Part shown: positions 19,300-34,780 of the stretch, piece by piece
Numbering within the stretch: the stretch's first letter is position 1
Layout of the letters: each line of letters opens with the position of its first letter
DNA from: Gamsiella multidivaricata
Taxonomy: Eukaryota > Mortierellomycota > Mortierellomycetes > Mortierellales > Mortierellaceae
Length of the DNA stretch: 64,000 bases
Reading direction: 5' to 3'
Assembly (NCBI RefSeq): GCF_025024155.1
Contig: NW_026251762.1
Location: 186,001 to 250,000 of the forward strand
Position numbers and translations under genes: made by a program
The notes under the pieces: generated by a model
The model's database searches: none
Told to the model about the DNA's origin: nothing
The model's input: the letters and a program-made list of their open reading frames with translations, nothing else

Positions 19300-20506
19300 A
19301 TGCCATCGCACCACAGCGCCGCCAACAGCAGACCTTGGGTCATCACTATCGGACTCAGGTATTTTTTTTTTTTTTTTTTTTTTGCTCAGCTATTGGGTGT
19401 TGTCATTGCGCCTCTGAAGGAAGACACGAGCATCGCCAGAAGACTATAAGAAACGCATATTGATAGGTAAATTGCTTTGCTCTCTCGGCGCCAATGCCAT
19501 CTTTGTAATAGTGGTCCATCCTCTGGCGGCAAAACGGTAAACAGCCAATTGCTGAGGATCGTCATCCTCATTTCGCGCGTGCAAAAATGTCACCTCCAAA
19601 ATGGCACTGTCAAATGCTAATCAAATAACTGGTATCTCTTTTGCATTACTGCAGACGACAGCTCGCTATCTGAGATCCATCCTTCCCAACAGCACTATCG
19701 TCCATCAGGACGACTTTTACAAACCAGAGGACCAGCTTCCTATCGATTCAAGGACAGGGCTCGCCAACTGGGATTGCCCTGAAGCCATTGACTTTGAGAC
19801 CATGATCTCCACTTTAACCCATGTCAAGGACCATGGCCAATTTCCAGAACGATTCAATTCTTTGGAAGACAAGAACCCAGTGGGATCTATCACACCCTCG
19901 GACCCAATTTCAGATCATATCTTAGACGGACTGAGAGAAAGGATTATCAGTCAGATCCCTTCCTATGACAGGACCAACGTCAAATTCTTGATATTGGACG
20001 GATTCATACTCTATGTAGACAACCAACTGCGGAATGCGATCGACATCAAATTTTATCTCACGGCACCATATCAGGTTCTCAAGGAAAGGCGAGAGTCCAG
20101 GAAGGGATATGCCACATTGGAAGGTAGAGCTCTATGCTCAACTCAACATCTGCGGTATCATGTCAATTGCACTCGTGCGCCAACTTCAAAAACAATTGAT
20201 CCGTATTTTTTTTTTTTTTTTTTTCGTTCTGCAGGTTACTGGGTGGATCCACCTGGTTACTTTGATAACATTGTGTGGCCAAATTACTTAACCTGCAACG
20301 AGCCCTTTATCAAGTTGACAGAGGCGATGGAGGCCGGCACGGAAAGCGGGATCTACGATGCAGAAAGGGAATTCTTGCGGCAAAATCCAATGACACAAAA
20401 GGTCGACGTTGTGTCCTCCGCAGACTCTTCCATCCAGTCCATGGTTGAGTCCGTTGCAGATTTACTTGCCAAGCGTCTCTCTGCGCTGTCTACAGTTTCA
20501 TCGTAA
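19300..20506 (+). CDS. NRK1: Nicotinamide riboside kinase
   Basis: Phosphorylates nicotinamide riboside to NMN with ATP in the NAD+ salvage pathway. Four exons: 19300-19358, 19512-19536 (25 nt), 19655-20123 and 20235-20506 (274 residues). The Walker A loop, GLSGPSSGGKTT, is assembled across the first three exons, with the 25-nt exon supplying most of it. Further family motifs: VHQDDFYKPEDQLP, NWDCPEAIDF, LILDGFILY, and after the last intron WVDPPGYFDNIVWPNYL. Order and spacing match human NRK1 closely. Introns 1 and 3 contain long T-runs before the acceptor. Convergent with RPB4 (151 bp between stop codons). Confidence 0.94.
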
Positions 20507-21526: not shown

Positions 21527-21879
21527 CCTGCTGTTCCTGTGAATGGTTCGGCGTTGGTTGAGTCGATGGCTCTCATCGCACAACCCAGATGCAAGTGTGT
21601 ATGAAAACAGGACTATCTAGGCGCTATCTACGTCATCGTAAATTCATCAACGCCCCCTGTAACGCGTGTGTGTGTGGCCGTACACACAAAATGCTAAAGT
21701 TCCATCTTTCTTCTTTTTTTGCGATTAGTGGCGCTGGTTCCAACAATAGCCCCTTCGGCCATCTCTTGCCCTGGACTTCTTGACTCCATTCATGGGTATC
21801 TACCATCTGCCGTGACGGGGTGAAGATAGAGTGGTCGTTCCTGGTGCAATAGGTACTCTCGGGCAATGTTGGACATGTT

Positions 21880-22830
21880 TTCGGCCGTTATCACATCTCT
21901 GTGGCGATACCGTCCACAGTGGGGGCAGAAGAGTTCTCGAAGGGTGACTTGGGCCACAAACCGGTGGCAATCCGGACATTTCTTTGACGTATAAAACTCG
22001 TTGAGACCCACCACATTGTATCTGAGAGACCGAGCCTAAATAAAATAACAAAATATGTTATTCATTGGCACTCACTCCTCCCGATGGTACATGGTGAAGA
22101 GTTTGCTTACCAATGGGATGAAATACGACAAAAATGAAGAGTGCAGAGATGACAGTTGGCTGGAGCTTCCGAACTGACCGAGACCCACGCCGATCAACAC
22201 AGGATTGTCATCCTTGCAGCGCTCACCGATGCTGCCACCAACAATCCGGAGTAGGCTGTTGGCAATAGCCTGGTACTCGATGTGCTTGGCTCGCTTCATA
22301 TCCCAAGTGTGTTTGTTGAACCGATTATTGTTACCATTATGAAAGTCCAACAGTCGATCCTCGACTTGTTCAAGCATCTCGATGTAATTGGTGACGCTCG
22401 CCTCTGGACCTCGAATAGGAGGAAGACAGGACTCGATGTCCGCGATGGAGTCTGACTGACCCGCTGGAATCAACTGCTTCTCATCCTCAAGCCACCGTCT
22501 GTATCGGAACACAGGCTTTTTGGTTGACAGCAAGATTATGGTGGTGGGCTTTCGTGAGCTCTATGGCTTTCGTGAGCCCTATCATTGTTGGTGGCGTGGT
22601 GGTCGCTTGTTGTTCCAAAGTGAGTCTCTGCATAACATCCTGTGGTGTTGTTGTCGAGGAAGAGGTAATAGGGAATAAGCCTTTGAAGGACGGAGGGGCT
22701 CCTTGCACTGGATCCTTGTCTTTGCCCGATTGTGGAAGATGTGCGTATGCTCCGACGACAAAATCTTGTCCTGCATCAAGGGTGAGAATCTTGATATCTT
22801 TAGGATCGACACTAGGCCAAAGTCTCGCCA
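21880..22830 (-). other. RuvC-like and zinc-ribbon region of the fusion gene
   Basis: ILTLDAGQDFVVGAY gives a Dxx-type RuvC-I strand; NPVLIGVGLGQFGSSSQLSS stands where RuvC-II would be; the ribbon has CPDC and CPHC pairs 14 residues apart between TSKK and HRDV. The TSKxCxxC...CxxC...RD pattern is that of OrfB/TnpB zinc ribbons and especially Fanzor proteins. Confidence 0.7.
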
Positions 22831-25059
22831 CATCGTCTTTGGTTCGGACAACGTTTCGGATCTCCGTCAAAAAAATCACTGGTACCGTGAAGTGTTGAAG
22901 TCAATCGAGGAGGTAGGCGATCGTCGGGCAACCGTTTGTATTTGACTGACAGAAGTTCCCTGACTTTGGAACACAGGAGCTGCATAGTGAATCCGTCAGT
23001 TCGTAAAGACCCCCTGAGAAAATATCCTTTGCGGGCATAGGTCTCCGATCTGAACTCTGGATCGTCCAGCATCTGCAAGTGGGTCTCGAGATCATCAAGT
23101 GATAACAACTTGATCGCAGCGCGGTGTCCAGCCTTGCCTCTCTGGCGACTGGTCAGGTCTTCGGGATCGGTATCGACGATGAGTGCTTGATGAGAAAGCC
23201 TGGTTCTTTTCCTCCTATCCACTCCTCAACATCCTGCATGGATGTGCAGACGGTACCGACCAGTTCCTGAACCCGTGCCCTCAGTGCGCCTCCGTGGTTG
23301 AAAAAGAACATGGCTAGTTGTCGCTCCGTGAAACTGACAAAAGGTTGCTTCGCCGTCGACATGGGGATGATCCTACAAGGGTTTGGACTTAATTTGTTGA
23401 TCGCGAGGTAGTTTTCGATAGCAGATACCTCCTCTTGGATCTCCACGTTAACATCGGACCCCAGCAGCCCCTTCTTTTTTCTTTTCTGGAGCTATAATTG
23501 AGATAATAAATGAGAGGCATGATAGGTATCGGTTTGATGTACATTAAGATGGCCAGTAGTGCCCTCAACTCATACCTTATTATGCAGCTCACAGGTCCCA
23601 TTACGGTACATTTTTTTGAGTTCGACCTTGAGCTGCAACGCCACCGATAGGAGTAACTCTGTTGGTGAGAAGGGAGTTGTCTCGTTGAGAGCGGCCCGAG
23701 GACGTGGTGGGGCGTACAGTCCGAGATCCTTGAGGCGATCAATGAAATCGTTGACCTTCTGACCGGTACCACTTTTTCGTGGGTAATTCCCAGAGTAGAG
23801 GTATGACAGAAAGCTCTGGAGGAACAAGAACTGCTCAGAGCCTTTGCCATCCTTGGATTTCTGGTCCATGTCATCACCATCCTCATCGTCGTCCTCTACA
23901 GCGCAACCGTCATCCAGCTTTTTCGCGTCCTTTATGGAGACTCGAGGGCAAAGAAAATTCATGAATCGACGATCGTTGGGACCCGGTCCATGCTTGTTTA
24001 CATGCTCGACAAACTTTCCAATTACTCGTTGACCTTGTCGTCTGATCCTGGCAGCCTCGCGCACAGCGTTTCGGATACAGAGGGCAACTTCCTGTTGAAC
24101 GGTACCGTCGTTTGGCAGAGCTCGTCTGAGGTTAGCGGATAGAGTACCGACGTTCAAAGTAGACGTTGGGTGCTGGTATTGTAATAACCGTGTAATAGCG
24201 AGCTTGCGGGTGGCTGCACTCGAATCGGACAACGTTTTGAGTTTGGTCTTGGGCTCGTCGCTGGAGGGCTCAAGCTCGTCTTTTGCTTCAGACTCCTTGT
24301 AAGGCTCGAACTTGTAGAGCTTCATCTTGACTGGGGGTGGGGGGTTTGTTGCCCCTGTCCTCGTCTTGAATGAGTAACGATGGCGATTTCGAGGGAGTTG
24401 CGTCCTTGGAAGTGGCGGGTGACCGTTTGACTCCTGAGACGGTAATGTGGTCGGAGGGTCATCCTACAGATTCGGTGCAGGTTGTTGTGGTTGTGCTGAG
24501 GATGGTTGCGGTGATGGCGGCTGTGGTAAGCGCGACCCAAGGCCAGGCTTCAACATAGCTGGAGACTCAACTGTCCTATATTGAATGGAAGAATGCGAGG
24601 AGCGGAGGCGGATGATATGATCTTTGCGAGTACTATTGACATCAAAACAATAAGTAAGGTGAGCTGTGAGACGATTGCCGATGCCAAGTCCTAAATGCCG
24701 TGCAATATTGAACAGAAATATAGCATACCTTGGTTGCAGTTGTGCGCGAAAATCCTTGTTCTCCTGGTACATGGCACAAAGATCCTTGAGTCGTTTGTAA
24801 AGCTCACTGTAGGACGAGACGTTGGACAAAGGACGAGGATCACTGACAGGCGTCTGTTGGAGATCAACAAAGACTCTGAGTGCAAGTTCAAGTGTTCTGT
24901 TGTCTGTGTTTTTTAAAACGACCTTGGAGTCTTCCAAATATGCATTCACCGTCTGTCGCACATCTGCAAAAATAGGGTAAAAAAAAGTAGAAAAAAAATT
25001 ATATATTAGTTAAATGGTTCAGCCTCGCTCCTTAATACTTTGATCATTGATATTTACCT

Positions 25060-25825
25060 TGTTTCTTGATCGTCTTGATAATCGAAAAGTTGGTCGCCGG
25101 TCCAAGAGAGTAGATATTTTTTCCGTAATCGTTGTTGGAGGCAACAGCGAGGGCTGTGAGTTGGATCCCGGACACACCGAGAACCTCACAGATATCCGAT
25201 ATCTTGTAGATCAGAATCAGGTTCTTTGAAATCGGGCGCCACAGGGTTGACACGGATGGTACGCGAGCATATCGCTGTCCGCAGACACGACAATATCGTC
25301 AGGTCTGCAATCTCGAGCGATCACAACATTAGCTTCCGTCTCGCATCGTTGAATGTTCCACCCCTCGTCCTGCATATACTTGACAGATGCATCACGGAGG
25401 GGCAGGGACCAATAGAAGGAGGACGCAAGGCTGGTCCAGGCATCGGCAAAGTGTCGCTTACGGACCTTGAGGTTGTTATCGGTCCGTCTTTGTAGTTCAT
25501 CCACACTTTCTTTGCATCGCTTAGTGGTCTTCTCCCGAGCTTCTCGGTGGATCTGAGCAGTGAACTCCTTCTCCTCTGCCTGGACTCCGTCGACGTAGAT
25601 AACGATGTTTTCCTTGGTCCCGAACCGCATGACATTCAGCTCTAGGATCGTATGGGCCACCTCGATGGAGTTTCGTGTATAAGCATTCCTGATGACTGAA
25701 AAGCGAGAGAGAAGGTCGATTCTTCTGGTGGCGGTGCTCGAGGTTGTTGACGCGGCTGATGAGTAAAGTACAGAGGGTTGGTAACCCTTCTTACGGAGAA
25801 AGGCGTACCAGCCTTTAAGACCCAT
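25060..25825 (-). other. XPG/FEN1-like PIN nuclease domain region of the fusion gene
   Basis: Motif order compared with FEN1: N-terminal MGLKGW; first Asp in RRIDLLS; second Asp in IYVDG; Glu pair in CETEANVVIA; Asp pair in SADSDMLAY; last Asp in SNNDYG, followed by the helix-two-turn-helix block SLGPATNFSIIK. All positions that bind metal in FEN1 have an acidic counterpart, although a one-base frameshift splits the domain near 25255. Confidence 0.75.
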
Positions 25826-26329
25826 CACTTCCTGTACGTCGAGTGGTGCGATGAGAGAGCTGCTGTCGAATGTGTAGTGTTTAGCTGAAGTAATGTGATC
25901 GATTCAATGGAAAAGAGGTCGGATGTCGGGAATCTGCAAAGACGATGAGGTTATGAGGTTTAAAGTAACGAGTGATCAGTGCTGTAACGCGTGGGTTCAT
26001 GCCAGAGTTTAACTCTGATTGGTATTGTCATGTGACGCTAGACGCGTCTAAGATTGGATCAACGTCGCCCTCATCACAGAAAGCTCCATGATGTAAAGAT
26101 GAGCAAAGGCAGCACCGAAACGTCTCATATACTCACAATTGTCTTCACACATTCGTCTTTGATCACTCACCTTGTTCACTCGTCTCCCCTCGTTTTCACC
26201 TCGTTGTTCCTCGCTCACCCACAAGTCTTACATATGATGTCCGTACAGACGAATAATTCGCCATCATTGCTGCCTATCGCTGCAACTAGTATGCTCAACA
26301 TCAGGCGCCGTGCAAACATATGTATTTAA
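25826..26329. other. Region between the fusion pseudogene and the coiled-coil remnant, no supported gene
   Basis: The minus-strand frame stays open a little upstream of the chosen start (to an AG at about 25888), so a 5' exon of the fusion gene could lie here. No other domain is seen. Confidence 0.35.
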
Positions 26330-26760
26330 CCGCAAAGGTCTATAAGGACATGGAGATTTTTATCAAGGAGAGCCTTACGAAGTTGACTACTTACAAGTAC
26401 AGGCCGACCAGAATGATTTTGATCCTTCACCTGATTCAACACTTCCACCGTCTTTGGAGCAAACCTTTCCACCAGCAAACCTTCTTCTACTTCATAGGCA
26501 AAGGGCAGAAAAGGCGGAACAGAACAAGAGCAGGAGCTTCAGGATCTTGAGGCCGATCTGAAAAACATGAAATCGGAGATCGTCATTGCCGCTGGCTCAA
26601 CAAAGAAGAGGAAATGTACGCTCGAGTACTTCCAGACTACAATTGCAGGAGTAAGGAAGACCTTGCTTGAGGTGAAGGGCCTCAATACTGTCCAGGCGGG
26701 ACAAAGATGTCAGTTAACCGTTGTCAAACAGGCACAAGGAATTGAGTCTGATTGACGGTC
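26330..26760 (+). pseudogene. Frameshifted remnant encoding a charged coiled-coil segment
   Basis: Plus-strand frames join across a frameshift near 26525: VDYLQVQADQNDFDPSPDS and ANLLLLHRQRAEKAEQ, then EQELQDLEADLKNMKSEIV and TTIAGVRKTLLEVKGLNTVQ. The Gln/Glu-rich part would form a coiled coil. No start or full frame. The family was not recognised; it looks like a piece of a multi-copy lineage-specific ORF. Confidence 0.35.
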
Positions 26761-26976
26761 AGAAGATTGTGTTCCAAAATAGGATGGTCCTTATTACCCC
26801 CCTTAAAAAACTTATTTCCTCCCATATGTATGAGTGACGTAGCCTACACATTCGAAAGTGCAGTCACCGAAATGCAGCAAGGCTTGTCGCTGCTACACCT
26901 TCGCCCAAGCAGGACCGACCAACCACACGAATACTGGCCAGGTGAGAAACGGAGAGACTATCATCAGCACGCCGCC

Positions 26977-30362: not shown

Positions 30363-30610
30363 CATTCCTATACGAACTCAAAGTGGAAAAGAACTTACTC
30401 TTGGTTGCCTGGGAAGAAGAATGATGTTAGAACTAAATGGCAGCCCTCTGAATATAAGATTCTCTCAGCGGACATCCGCGCATCGGACTACGATGATGTC
30501 ACCGAAGTAGGCAACAGCTCGGTCTGCGCAGCTATCTAAATCCACCCAAAGGTGGACAAAGGTGCTTTCGAACACCTCAAAATGAAAAATAGGAAAGAAA
30601 AAAAGCTAGT

Positions 30611-31260
30611 CTAACTATCGAACTGCATGGCGTTTGCCTTGCCCTTGGGTGTCTTCGCCTTTCGCTTGGCCATGGTTGCCTTGGTGCGCTTGCCACACTT
30701 CTTGTCAGCATTGCTATCCCCCTCTGCCTGGCGCTTGCGACCAGCGCGACAAGCATGATCACCACTGCTGCTTGCCTGCTGCGACCGACCTGAGGCATCC
30801 TTGGGTCGGGCCGCACTCTTGCCTTCAGGCTTCAGCCAGGGGTAGTGGCCGTCCATGTCGACCGGATGCAGATAGATTGGCCGCTGCTGCTGCTCGACAT
30901 GACTGCGCAAAATGTTGACGATGTTGTGTCCTGGCCCTTGCCCTAACGCGCTACTGCTGCCGCTACTCCTGCTGCTGCTGCCCCATCTTCTGTGTGCAGT
31001 CTTGCATCTTGCATCCAAGGGTAATGCCTGCCCTTATCTACTGGCTGAAGAGAGAGCGGTCGCTGTTGCATGAGTAAATGGCTGCGAACGACGTTTACAA
31101 ATGTTATGATATATCGCGGTGCATGGAAGTGTTGCAGGCTGAGCAGTATAGCCTGAGAATCTCGACCTGGCCGACAAACTTCTCGCACGTTGGACATTTC
31201 TTGGACGTATAGTATTCATTTGCACCAACCACGATGTAGCCTAGGGACCTGGCCTATGGG
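30611..31260 (-). pseudogene. 3'-end remnant of the XPG-TnpB-like family with internal duplication (copies C and D)
   Basis: From the right: an intron-acceptor-like CCATAG precedes ARSLGYIVVGANEYYTSKK, CPTC, then CSAC and MHRDI, i.e. a four-Cys zinc ribbon as at 21.9 kb. After a one-base frameshift comes VNVVRSHLLMQQRPLSLQPV and HYPWMQD. A second version of the same block follows at about 30940-30840 (HNIVNILRSHVEQQQRPIYL, HPVDMDGHYPW), then a Lys/Arg-rich tail (KRTKATMAKRKAKTPKGK) ending in TAG at 30611. Here the Trp after HYP is intact, unlike the copies at 21.8 and 29.0 kb. The rest of the gene upstream is missing. Confidence 0.68.
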
Positions 31261-31704
31261 ACACCAAGACGAAGTCAGTATAATATATGGAGCGATTTTA
31301 CACAACTTGGAAAACTCTGGATGCCAACGCACCACTTCCCGTCTACGTTCAAAAGTATTATAACGGAAAATGAGGCCGACCACGCGGATTCGATTGGTCA
31401 GTGAAACATGTATGCAGACATGGGACTCCAAGAAAACACTTTCCAGTGGCCGTGACTCTGTCGGTCAACGGTGTCCAGTCCATATCCGAATCTGCAAAAG
31501 GGCGAACCAAGACCGAGTAGACATCGAGTACCTTTGGCGTTATAAGGACAGCAGCTCCCTTGCAATAAGCAAAAAATTCCCTCGGGGGCTAAACAATCGG
31601 AATTGGTATAGAGAGAAGATCTCGGAAGTATAACTGGAAAGGGATCCAGAAGCTTTTAAGACCTCGCCAAGGCAGCCTTGATATGGTCTGTTGACTTGAC
31701 TGTA
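31261..31704. other. No supported gene; flank of Tc1 element
   Basis: No homology to the exon that precedes the zinc ribbon in the 22-kb copy was found, so the remnant stops at or near the intron. No other domain seen. Confidence 0.35.
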
Positions 31705-31816
31705 CAGTCACCTAACAAAACTAATTAGCGAATCATAATTTTCAAGCCATGAGCATCTTTTCTTCAACACGACTTTTCTTCTCCAAGCACAGTCGACAGC
31801 AGCTTGAGTAGCTACC

Positions 31817-33001
31817 ATGCCGAAACAGTTATCCATGGAAGAAAAAGGTGTTATCATTGGAATGAGTCTAGCGGGGATGAGCCATACGGAAATTGCAGCG
31901 AAGTGTAACACACCCAGGCCCATGATGACTGCGAAGTATATATGAACCAGAAGTCAATGAGAACAAGAGAGGGATCTTTAATATTAATCCACCGAGAACA
32001 TTATATGTTACTCGGTGGCTTAAGTAAATTGATAGGACTCGCTGGATCTAATTAAATACACGCGGTGGCAGCATGTAATATGGCTATATGCCACAATGAC
32101 CAATATTATTCACATCTACCATCAAAGAGGCACCACTGCACACGCCCCAGTTCCTGGACGGCCAAGAGCGCTCAGTGAGAGAGACATTAGGAGTATGATA
32201 CGCAATACAAAGCTTGAAAGACGTGTCACTCTACAGGATATCACCAACATGGTACCCCATGAAGTGAGCGAAGGCACCGTTCGGAGAGCGCTCCATTCAG
32301 CTGGCATTTTCAGCCGGGTAGCCGCAAAGAAACCCTATCTCAGCGACGTTCACAAGGACAAGCGACTCGCATTTATGCGGAGGTACAGCAAATGGACAAC
32401 GGAGCAATGGTCAAGGGTAGTATGGACTGATGAGTCAACATTCGAGGTTGGAGAGAATTTTCGCCAGATTCGAGTTTGGCGAACAGCGGAGGAGAAGTAC
32501 GATGACAATTGCCTCGCACCCACATTCAAGAGCGGTAGGACCTCCCTCATGGTCTGGGGCGCATTTACAGCTACTAAGAAGTCCAGGCTGGTTGTTTTTG
32601 AGCGAGGACGTCGCGACGGACAGTGCTTCGTGGAGGATGTGTATGAGGGTGAATTGCTTAGGTTTATGACGGAGGTACAGGATGGAATCCTCATGGAAGA
32701 TGGTGTCCCAGTGCACAGCTGCGCGCTGTCAAAGAGTTGGCGCCAAGTGCACGGCTTTCGCAAGATAGAGGACTGGCCAGCCAATTCCCCAGATTTGAAC
32801 CCCATCGAGCATGTTTGGTCCCTCCTTGGTACTGCCCTCAATCGACGACGAAGTCAAACTCGGGACATTGCAACCCTGATGAGAGCTCTAGTGGAGGAGT
32901 GGAATGCTTTACCACAAGAACAGCTGGCAAGGCTAGTCGACACGATGCCCCAGAGACTGGAATTCGTGAAAAAGCACAGAGGTGGTAATGGCAGATATTG
33001 A
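31817..33001 (+). pseudogene. Tc1-type transposase, interrupted by a 166-bp insertion
   Basis: N-terminal HTH starts MPKQLSMEEKGVIIG at 31817 and is cut after codon ATGAC at 31929; the frame resumes at 32096-32101 (TNIIHIYHQRG). The DDE catalytic core follows: WTDEST, MEDGVPVH, and WPANSPDLNPIEHVW. Removing the insert and one copy of the ATGAC duplication leaves a 1014-nt frame of 337 residues, the same size as the 339-residue transposase at 40827. With the insert in place, a TGA ends translation after about 42 residues. All three catalytic acids are present. Confidence 0.88.
31930..32095. mobile_element. Nested 166-bp TG...CA insert with 5-bp target duplication (solo-LTR/TRIM candidate)
   Basis: Begins TGCGAAG and ends GCCACA, is flanked by ATGAC at 31925-31929 and 32096-32100, and sits inside the transposase frame. 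TG...CA ends with a 5-bp duplication are the hallmark of LTR-retroelement insertion. An internal palindrome CCACCGAG...CTCGGTGG lies near 31990-32019. No second copy was seen in the window. Confidence 0.7.
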
Positions 33002-33203
33002 GCGAGCCACAACCCTCTCCTTCAGCATAAACCACCCTGATATTCACCAAAGATGTTCCCCCAGAGCCCTTCGATAGACATGAAGAATTTCATAGCGACT
33101 GCATAACTCTTTAGGTGTGTTGTATATAGGTAATTTGAAAAAGAATGCGCAAAAGCATAGGTAAAAGTTATGATTCACTAATTAGTTTTGTTAGGTGACT
33201 GTA

Positions 33204-33539
33204 CATTCGTGGTTTCTGTCATCCGCGGCAATATGCCTAGCTCTCCTCACGAAATTGATTGATTGCTTCGTATATCTTATTGTAGTTGGAGCAGGAAAAA
33301 GAGAACCTCCCTCTCGGGTTTCTTATCAAGTACGTTTATATTAGGGGAGTCATTCATCGAGCGCGTATAAAGACTTCTCAAAAACTAAGGATGTTATAAA
33401 GAGCGTGGAGGAATGGATCAAACGAATCGGAAAAGGCAAAGACAAAGGAATATTCTTGGATACCATTGACAACGAGCCACAGTAATTCATAATCCCCTGG
33501 TACTCAGCTTTTCTCTTGCTCTCTCGGTACTTTTTTATC
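33204..33539. other. No supported gene
   Basis: Spacer between Tc1 element 1 and the MULE remnant; no domain recognised. Confidence 0.35.
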
Positions 33540-34780
33540 CATCTGTCTACGTCTCTGTTGCTGCTACTTATTCTCCCTTCAACAGAATATGAATGAGAAT
33601 AGGCTGATAGTTTGCATGGGCTCCACACATAAGGCTGTTAAATCTCTGAGGCCTATCGAGGACGAGTCGCCTGGAAACTCTCCTGTATACACGTCTGTAT
33701 ATCTATTTACGATCCTTGTAAAAGACTGCCAAGTCCATCGAGGGATCCCTATTGCATATATGATTACCAGCTCTGAATCAAAATATGGTCATTCGTTGAG
33801 TATGTTTATTTATGAATAGTCTTTATGAGAAAATAGTTCATGATAGACTATTCAGTAGTCTAATCCTAGGCGCTGAAGGCAGTGTTTCTTAATTCATCGA
33901 TATATTATTGCCACTTCCATCCCGGCCAACTTTGGGGACACCGTCTCCGCAAATCTACCAGTGTATGTAACACGAAACCAAGATTTCATTTTGTTGCACT
34001 GCATGCAAGACACTGAACCGTGCGAAACCTTGTTCGCATCGTTAGGTGAAGGAATGTGATGAGACGCGCTGGATGCGACCTTTGCTGAACAAGGTTCACG
34101 CTTCAGAGTCCAAGGAAAAACTGCTCGAGCTACGGAATGAGTTCAAGGGCCAGCATGCGCAAAAAGTCATCTTAATTCGTTATATCGAGAGGAAATGGAT
34201 GAACGGTGAATCTATGCCAACCTGGGTGAATTTTGCTCCTTTTTGACGTTATCTTCAGAATTATCAGCATGTGGACACGAATAACTTGGTGGAAAGCTGG
34301 CATAAAACGCCCAAGAAAGTTCATCTGGGCAACGAGCGCAATGTTTGCGCAGATTATCTTATCTTCTTGCTATACAATATCATAAAGACTGACTTTCGAG
34401 TCACCTACCTCAAGACCAGGAAGGGACTATTGCCTGTGGAGCTGTCAGCGTATGACAAAATGAAGAAGGCCAAGGCGATGAATTTGGAACTCTCTCTTGC
34501 GAAGGATATGATTACAGAAAAGATGGACGAGTTTAAGGTGCGTACTCTTCGTGTGATAGATCTGATATTCTTCCCTGCGGTTCTAATTCTTTCTCTTCTA
34601 CATATCTGCAGCTTGAGGTGAAATCATTTACTTCAACTGAAGTTCAATACTCCGTTGTCGCCGACATGGAAAGAAGTTTTCTTCTTTCTTGTTCCTGTGA
34701 CGATTACGAAAAGCATAGGATCCCTTGTATTTATATTTGGTGAAAAGGATATACAACGTCTTCGAAATCAACTACGACTC
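33540..34780 (+). pseudogene. Mutator-like (MULE) transposase remnant with SWIM zinc finger
   Basis: Fragments in order on the plus strand: NRLIVCMGSTHKAVKSL and HRGIPIAYMITSSESKYGHS (start of the MULE catalytic domain, with Gly where the usual D of the DSTHKT motif stands), VKECDETRWMRPLLNKV, HVDTNNLVESWHKTPKKVHL, LLPVELSAYDKMKKAK, and finally SCSCDDYEKHRIPCIYIW, a degenerate SWIM CxCx(n)PCx(H)xW finger in which Tyr replaces His. Frameshifts and gaps separate them and no terminal repeats were found. Confidence 0.7.

Follow-up and report, generated by a model that had tools for sequence, protein, structure and literature searches.

A predicted fusion of an XPG/FEN1-family nuclease with a TnpB/Fanzor-type nuclease in probable Mutator-like elements of the fungus Gamsiella multidivaricata

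In Fanzor nucleases the catalytic residues follow a set order, a RuvC aspartate, a glutamate that follows the last strand and precedes the zinc ribbon, and a last aspartate (PMC11423790), and the motif D-X(125,275)-[TS][TS]XX-C4-X(5,50)-RD has been published for Fanzor and TnpB proteins (PMC3627910). Fanzor1 elements of MuDr type, with 9-bp duplications, have been described from Rhizopus, Phycomyces and Mucor (ROr-4, PBl-3 and MCi-4; Bao and Jurka, 2013, PMC3627910), and the consulted parts of that paper describe no XPG domain. The locus presented here lies in a window of 64,000 nucleotides, the whole stretch of DNA that was analysed, from Gamsiella multidivaricata (assembly GCF_025024155.1, contig NW_026251762.1, forward-strand positions 186,001 to 250,000; positions below are those of the window). 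From 25825 to 21694 its minus strand holds one collinear gene of four predicted exons, which begins with an XPG/FEN1-family domain, continues in a long middle region and ends in a RuvC and zinc ribbon of TnpB/Fanzor type. The gene is dead in this copy and stands within what reads, from the sequence, as a shortened Mutator-like element (MULE).

The initial annotation had placed XPG/FEN1 and TnpB/Fanzor motifs in a single minus-strand gene, which is borne out by motifs standing where it had put them and by profile matches for both halves. The coding span is limited by an ATG at 25825 and, at 21694, by a stop position common to the sister copies. Three GT-AG introns are inferred (25057-24964, 23575-23492 and 22110-22036), the exon limits being predictions read from GT-AG signals and from comparison with relatives (Table 1). 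The gene appears gapped because it is interrupted partly by ordinary introns and partly by damage. In the window copy itself, exon 4 matches the zinc ribbon model PF07282 at E 1.7e-10 (41.4 bits, cut-off 26.3).

Table 1. Features of the window element, in the order of the minus strand.
Feature	Position	Strand	Basis
Probable remnant of the divergent transposase's SWIM-type tail, catalytic part absent	26233..26819	+	Homology to C134
LTR-like insertion, TG...CA, shortened	26000..26232	-	Four solo copies L039-L042
Exon 1 (predicted), XPG/FEN1-family nuclease domain	25058..25825	-	MGLKGW start, RID, YVDG, ETEA, SADSD, NNDY, SLGPA
Exon 2 (predicted), linker and conserved middle region	23576..24963	-	dN/dS 0.20 between subfamilies
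Exon 3 (predicted), conserved middle region and RuvC-I (TLDAGQ) up to GxGLGQF block	22111..23491	-	
Exon 4 (predicted), LNEFYTSKKCPDC...CPHC...HRDV zinc ribbon and last RuvC Asp	21694..22035	-	PF07282
Hairpin immediately 3' of shared stop, TGTGTGT/ACACACA	21669..21688	-	Sequence
Element right end, foldable stem and TGACGT motif	21602..21660	-	Sharp boundary after ...GTCCTGTTTTCA, copies diverge there

The first half was examined with a profile of 10 intact relatives, chosen from 36 aligned sequences. Against PDB chains it matches 6vbh, an XPG/FEN1 chimera (E 4.1e-8), Rad2 (2.8e-7), archaeal FEN1 (3.6e-6) and EXO1 (2.2e-4), and in profile comparison the host's own XPG/FEN1 genes match it at E 5.4e-7. 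These matches support a place with the XPG/Rad2/FEN1 nucleases, with flap-cutting and fold being predicted. Nine active-site and gateway positions, which have counterparts in FEN1, are invariant in all ten chosen sequences, and six of them, across all 36 rows and gaps aside, are kept in 33/34, 34/35, 35/35, 33/35, 34/35 and 34/34. Like XPG, Rad2, FEN1 and EXO1, the family has the catalytic acids, a C-terminal helical block that aligns to FEN1/XPG, and Lys and Arg at D+7 and D+14 in FEN1 numbering; unlike them, it sits in a transposon protein and is joined to a TnpB-type nuclease. Standard models detect this half less fully: fen_arch matches it up to E 2.2e-6, far under the whole-protein cut-off of that model, and XPG_I is found at E <=0.01 in 23 of the 36 members, many of which fall under the Pfam cut-off. 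Genome-wide, XPG_I gives nine matches, the window's XPG half not being among them, and five of the nine are weaker members of the fused-nuclease family (25.5-26.6 bits against a cut-off of 24.9). The only Pfam match of the window's own XPG half is to Pox_G5 (E 0.0011, 18.6 bits, under the 27-bit cut-off); a viral gene was considered on this account and rejected, the family profile fitting cellular XPG/FEN1 and the gene recurring in fungal transposons.

For the second half a profile was built from the second halves of six relatives. It matches LaTranC (E 1.6e-4), the TnpB-like L79 (0.002) and SpuFz1 (0.016, with partial coverage), with no significant match to Cas-phi (0.22) or Cas12f (0.58). 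The NCBIfam model guided_TnpB matches this half up to 9.6e-11, under its whole-protein cut-off, and the PF07282 zinc ribbon exceeds its cut-off in five of the seven relatives scanned, the models of the other two being without that part. Among sequences with a residue at the position, the first RuvC Asp is kept in 20/20, the Glu that precedes the zinc ribbon in 13/14 and the last Asp in 14/14; the zinc-ribbon Cys residues are likewise retained in relatives. Furthermore, the published motif fits 17 of the 18 proteins holding both anchors, in a script with fixed CxxC pairs and with 3-50 residues allowed before RD (5-50 as published). In its RuvC Asp/Glu/Asp order and C4 zinc ribbon the family resembles Fanzor (SpuFz1, GtFz1 and PpFz1, as described in PMC11423790), TnpB, TranC and Cas12; it differs from them in its distant sequence, in its N-terminal XPG domain and in a guide RNA that is here only putative. 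A place for the second half with TnpB/Fanzor/Cas12 is supported by the profiles, which give it the TnpB/Fanzor matches whose absence would have told against the initial annotation. Chance resemblance of motifs is excluded by the profile statistics (4.1e-8 for the XPG half and 1.6e-4 for the TnpB-type half); as a control, the first-half and second-half profiles match each other at E 0.39.

That the two halves form one protein is indicated by relatives. Three protein searches returned 16, 41 and 159 matches (of the last, the best 120 of 159), from which 170 proteins were fetched; the counts among these are shaped by the third search, which admitted short proteins only. The XPG profile matches 43 of the 170, the C-terminal profile 146, and both profiles 20, so that the halves are not always separate genes. 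The XPG half comes first in 20/20 of the two-half predicted proteins, with both matches longer than 150 residues in 15/20 by hand count. These proteins come from Gryganskiella, Entomortierella, Podila, Linnemannia, Haplosporangium, Benniella and Mortierella. The named hosts in the protein lists are, as far as is known, Mortierellaceae apart from a 1.3-kb contig labelled Apophysomyces (P0116), and the remaining entries are metagenome proteins. A single mRNA across both halves is predicted from automated gene models and splice signals. It is very improbable that two adjacent, separate genes have been merged by automated annotation: the three introns are indeed predictions and many database models hold one half, but such one-half models are expected, given that the third search was limited to short proteins and that many entries carry a partial label. 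Moreover, the exon 1/2 border has good splice signals with conserved protein immediately beyond it, and no Met in the stretch that joins the halves is shared by more than 8 of 12 relatives (13 of full length were inspected). The regular order and spacing of the halves in the genome, described below, also speak against two genes.

The pairing was followed across the genome (37.5 Mb) with two independent probes, the XPG half of a Dissophora protein (127 matches) and the Pfam zinc ribbon (121 matches). At 62 of the 121 zinc-ribbon matches an XPG half stands no more than 6 kb upstream in the same orientation, with a median gap of 2,966 bp; the control arrangements, wrong order and opposite strand, occur at four and five. 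A second XPG probe gave 118 genome matches, the pairing counts being those of the Dissophora probe. A host XPG gene with an inserted transposable element is excluded, as the pair recurs at 62 zinc-ribbon matches. A separate zinc-ribbon subfamily (C98:64208, C111:360067, C105:273202, C33:67847, C62:31093 and C88:13230; L052, L058 and L060-L063) consists of copies mostly 93-99% identical, whose right end is sharp. For these six copies the 6 kb upstream yielded no XPG half; near-relatives in C93 and C140 do have one.

Both halves have been maintained by purifying selection. Between two subfamilies, the ratio of nonsynonymous to synonymous substitution rates (dN/dS) is 0.20 in exon 2, 0.15 in exon 3 and 0.13 in exon 4; exon 1 is given as the ratio of nonsynonymous to synonymous proportions (pN/pS), 0.30, because synonymous change is saturated there. 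The window copy is dead, as the initial annotation had suspected in calling the gene decayed. Its frame changes near 25260 in exon 1 and near 23170, 22870 and 22510 in exon 3, an in-frame stop lies near 24465 in exon 2, and the exon 4 frame ends early, at 21790. In the ETEAD motif it has Asn for the Asp of relatives, one XPG catalytic acid being lost, and at D+14 it has His for Arg. Gene-region copies at 94-96% DNA identity to the window (C97, C118, C126, C111 and C146, with a shorter match in C50) are accompanied by C19 at 89% and by C134, at 95% and 81% over two parts; the second subfamily is about 67% identical to the window and has six members, 95-99% alike. Single exons are open in sister copies (exon 1 in C118, exon 2 in C126 and exon 3 in C97, the last with TLDARQ instead of TLDAGQ at RuvC-I), and the open frame of exon 4 is longer in C111 than in the window; no copy open over all exons was found among the same-genome copies read.

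The carrier is best seen in a copy of a third subfamily, C93, in which a divergent gene to the left of the fused gene encodes a probable MULE domain (PF10551, E 3.6e-5) and a probable SWIM finger (E 0.0035). This element is flanked on both sides by an identical nine bases, CCGACGTTG, and 9 bp is the target duplication size of MULEs. Terminal repeats of about 22 bp stand exactly at the ends of C93 and C145, and it is by this position that they carry weight; in the first two subfamilies, where simple terminal inverted repeats were sought, only C118 scored above shuffles. The same transposase lies in pieces, divergent and upstream, in C101, C122, C124, C159, C166, C47 and C94, with best E values of 8e-29 for the catalytic part and 5e-106 for the N part, the latter in C159. 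A Pfam scan of the subfamily-2 transposase pieces was near-empty (SWIM, E 0.038). Among the 23 SWIM matches of the genome, eight are found up to 7 kb upstream of a zinc ribbon and in divergent orientation, one lies on the same strand and none is convergent, about one being expected by space. The initial annotation's suggestion that the gene is fungal and mobile is sustained by relatives in fungi and by copies in MULEs.

In the window, the element reads from 26819 to 21602 as a shortened MULE composed of the transposase remnant, an insertion resembling a long terminal repeat (LTR), the fused gene and the right end. The left part shared with other copies starts at 26819, left ends differing among copies, and 26135-26819 is 90% identical to C134. 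In this member of the window's subfamily the corresponding part resembles the tail of the transposase (E 1.6e-4). The remnant in the window did not match that tail at E 0.01, nor did Pfam find SWIM on the window frames, and no 9-bp target duplication was found at the window copy. The LTR-like repeat occurs elsewhere in the genome alone, at about 335 bp, and here within the left part of the window's subfamily, where it is possibly a promoter for the fused gene. A retro-type element, as suggested by variable left ends and the LTR, is rejected because that repeat occurs alone elsewhere.

As described in PMC3627910, MuDr-type Fanzor1 elements are likewise fungal Mutator-type DNA transposons with 9-bp duplications that carry a TnpB/Fanzor protein, and in another Mucor family, MCi-2, the 3' part is likewise constant and the 5' ends vary; unlike the present elements, the MuDr-type ones encode no MuDR transposase. 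The presence of near-identical copies in the window's subfamily, which lacks the catalytic part of the transposase in the copies read, would suit an element mobilised by the fused nuclease itself, with the MULE gene as a passenger or independent neighbour. This is improbable, as non-autonomous MULEs moved in trans are commonplace and the exact 9-bp duplication of C93 is of MULE type.

Positions 30471-34234 of the window hold another broken element, which belongs to the C93 subfamily, with a zinc ribbon at 31253-31110 (minus strand), a right end at 30471 and MULE transposase pieces at 33595-34234 (plus strand); neither XPG probe found an XPG half with it. Apparently inserted into it, between inverted repeats near 31700 and 33200, is an open frame of 321 residues (32036-33001) that by eye resembles a Tc1/mariner transposase. 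To the other side of the fused gene, the plus-strand frame at 19556-20506 resembles, by eye, a nicotinamide riboside or uridine kinase.

The guide RNA of TnpB and Fanzor originates at the element right end. All compared right ends have a hairpin, or sequence capable of one, just 3' of the stop (GTGTGT/ACACAC, GGTGC/GCACC or ATGTG/CACAT), preceded in three subfamilies by GACTAGYTTTT. The last 50-70 bases fold into a longer stem in five of six subfamilies, a TGACGT-like motif standing close to the end, the sixth (C98 and C105) having short stems only, and the first hairpin is missing from the best fold in C134 and the C93 subfamily. Over 110 bases the right ends of three subfamilies fold better than shuffles, the folding z being -4.65 in C93, -3.24 in C145, -3.81 in C122, -2.43 in C94 and -1.98 in C47; over 150 bases folding is weaker throughout (z -0.09 to -3.67), and among coding controls of that length two of 40 fall under -2 (-2.07 and -2.55). 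The window copy is weak in itself, at -1.48 over 110 bases and -0.52 over 150. A known RNA family was rejected, Rfam offering a single match, below threshold, in an intron region. The right end can fold and is a candidate source of omega-RNA, no more than a candidate; a DNA-level role of its hairpins in transposition is equally possible.

Drawing on the architecture, the purifying selection, the conserved active-site residues, the copy number and the MULE link, we favour, with somewhat better than even confidence, a reading in which the locus is a dead, shortened MULE with a fused XPG-TnpB/Fanzor gene whose RuvC and XPG halves would break an RNA-guided target together, most of the doubt attaching to the RNA step. 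The proposed working would combine RNA binding, R-loop formation, joint cutting and repair-driven spread. The C-terminal half would bind an RNA derived from the structured right end and, so loaded, would open an R-loop at empty alleles or at the empty donor site of the element. The target would be broken jointly by the RuvC site and by the XPG site, whose family cuts single/double-strand junctions, and repair from a remaining copy would restore or spread the element. In its most specific form, an RNA-guided two-nuclease enzyme in which a RuvC cut and XPG cuts at R-loop junctions would give a defined staggered or gapped break serving the MULE, the proposal is tentative and less than even. The fused protein could instead be a guide-free helper of transposition or repair, the XPG half trimming flaps or hairpins that arise in MULE excision and repair and the TnpB-derived end being a DNA-binding module or a RuvC nuclease aimed by protein contacts, one possible target being the hairpin ends of the element. 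XPG/FEN1 enzymes do cut flaps and bubbles without RNA, and the right-end stem would be recognisable as DNA by a structure-specific nuclease. We nevertheless hold such a helper to be unlikely, as conservation of all three catalytic residues of RuvC and of the zinc-ribbon Cys is what an active Fanzor-type nuclease would show, and the long conserved middle region, judged by position only, sits where the guide-binding domains of TnpB/Fanzor lie.

Several observations weigh against the favoured reading. Right ends of the subfamily to which the window copy belongs fold weakly, five copies having z of -0.56 to -2.13 over 110 bases, and the match to SpuFz1 is marginal as well as partial. The C93 matches fall under their cut-offs (24.6 bits against 27.6 for PF10551 and 17.3 against 19.6 for SWIM), the terminal repeats are no better than shuffles (12 against 14 in C93 and 15 against 17 in C145), and an exact 9-bp duplication is found in one of three copies, C145 having none and C109 missing its left end. 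In addition, the 6 kb upstream of 59 of the 121 zinc-ribbon matches gave no XPG half, contig ends and decay being likely causes at some of them. At the one of these zinc ribbons that was inspected closely (C131:129409), a pogo/Tigger-like transposase frame on the same strand (C131:132300-133900, L080) lies upstream in place of the XPG half.

Fanzors in MuDr-type elements are already known; the XPG fusion was not found in the literature searched. No Fanzor-XPG fusion, nor any Fanzor in Mortierella, was found in the open-access papers searched, and no TnpB joined to XPG or a flap endonuclease was found there, the matching works concerning Cas12a, a phage and gene therapy. The words Mortierella and flap are absent from three main Fanzor papers (PMC3627910, PMC10711439 and PMC10432273), as are FEN, fused and fusion from the main text of PMC3627910. 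The parts are already recorded separately under the database names 'XPG-I domain-containing' and 'Cas12f1-like TNB domain-containing', and an earlier report of the fusion may exist.

If the proposal is true, a flap nuclease of repair type and an RNA-guided nuclease would here have been fused in nature, and an R-loop-forming enzyme would be naturally paired with a member of a family that cuts flaps and bubbles of the R-loop type. The mechanism would then have a direct bearing on how Fanzors assist transposons, a question still open, and on tools for making defined staggered cuts. Even if no RNA guides the protein, it would still be unexpected for Mutator-like transposons of a fungal family to have captured, fused and amplified a conserved nuclease of repair type.

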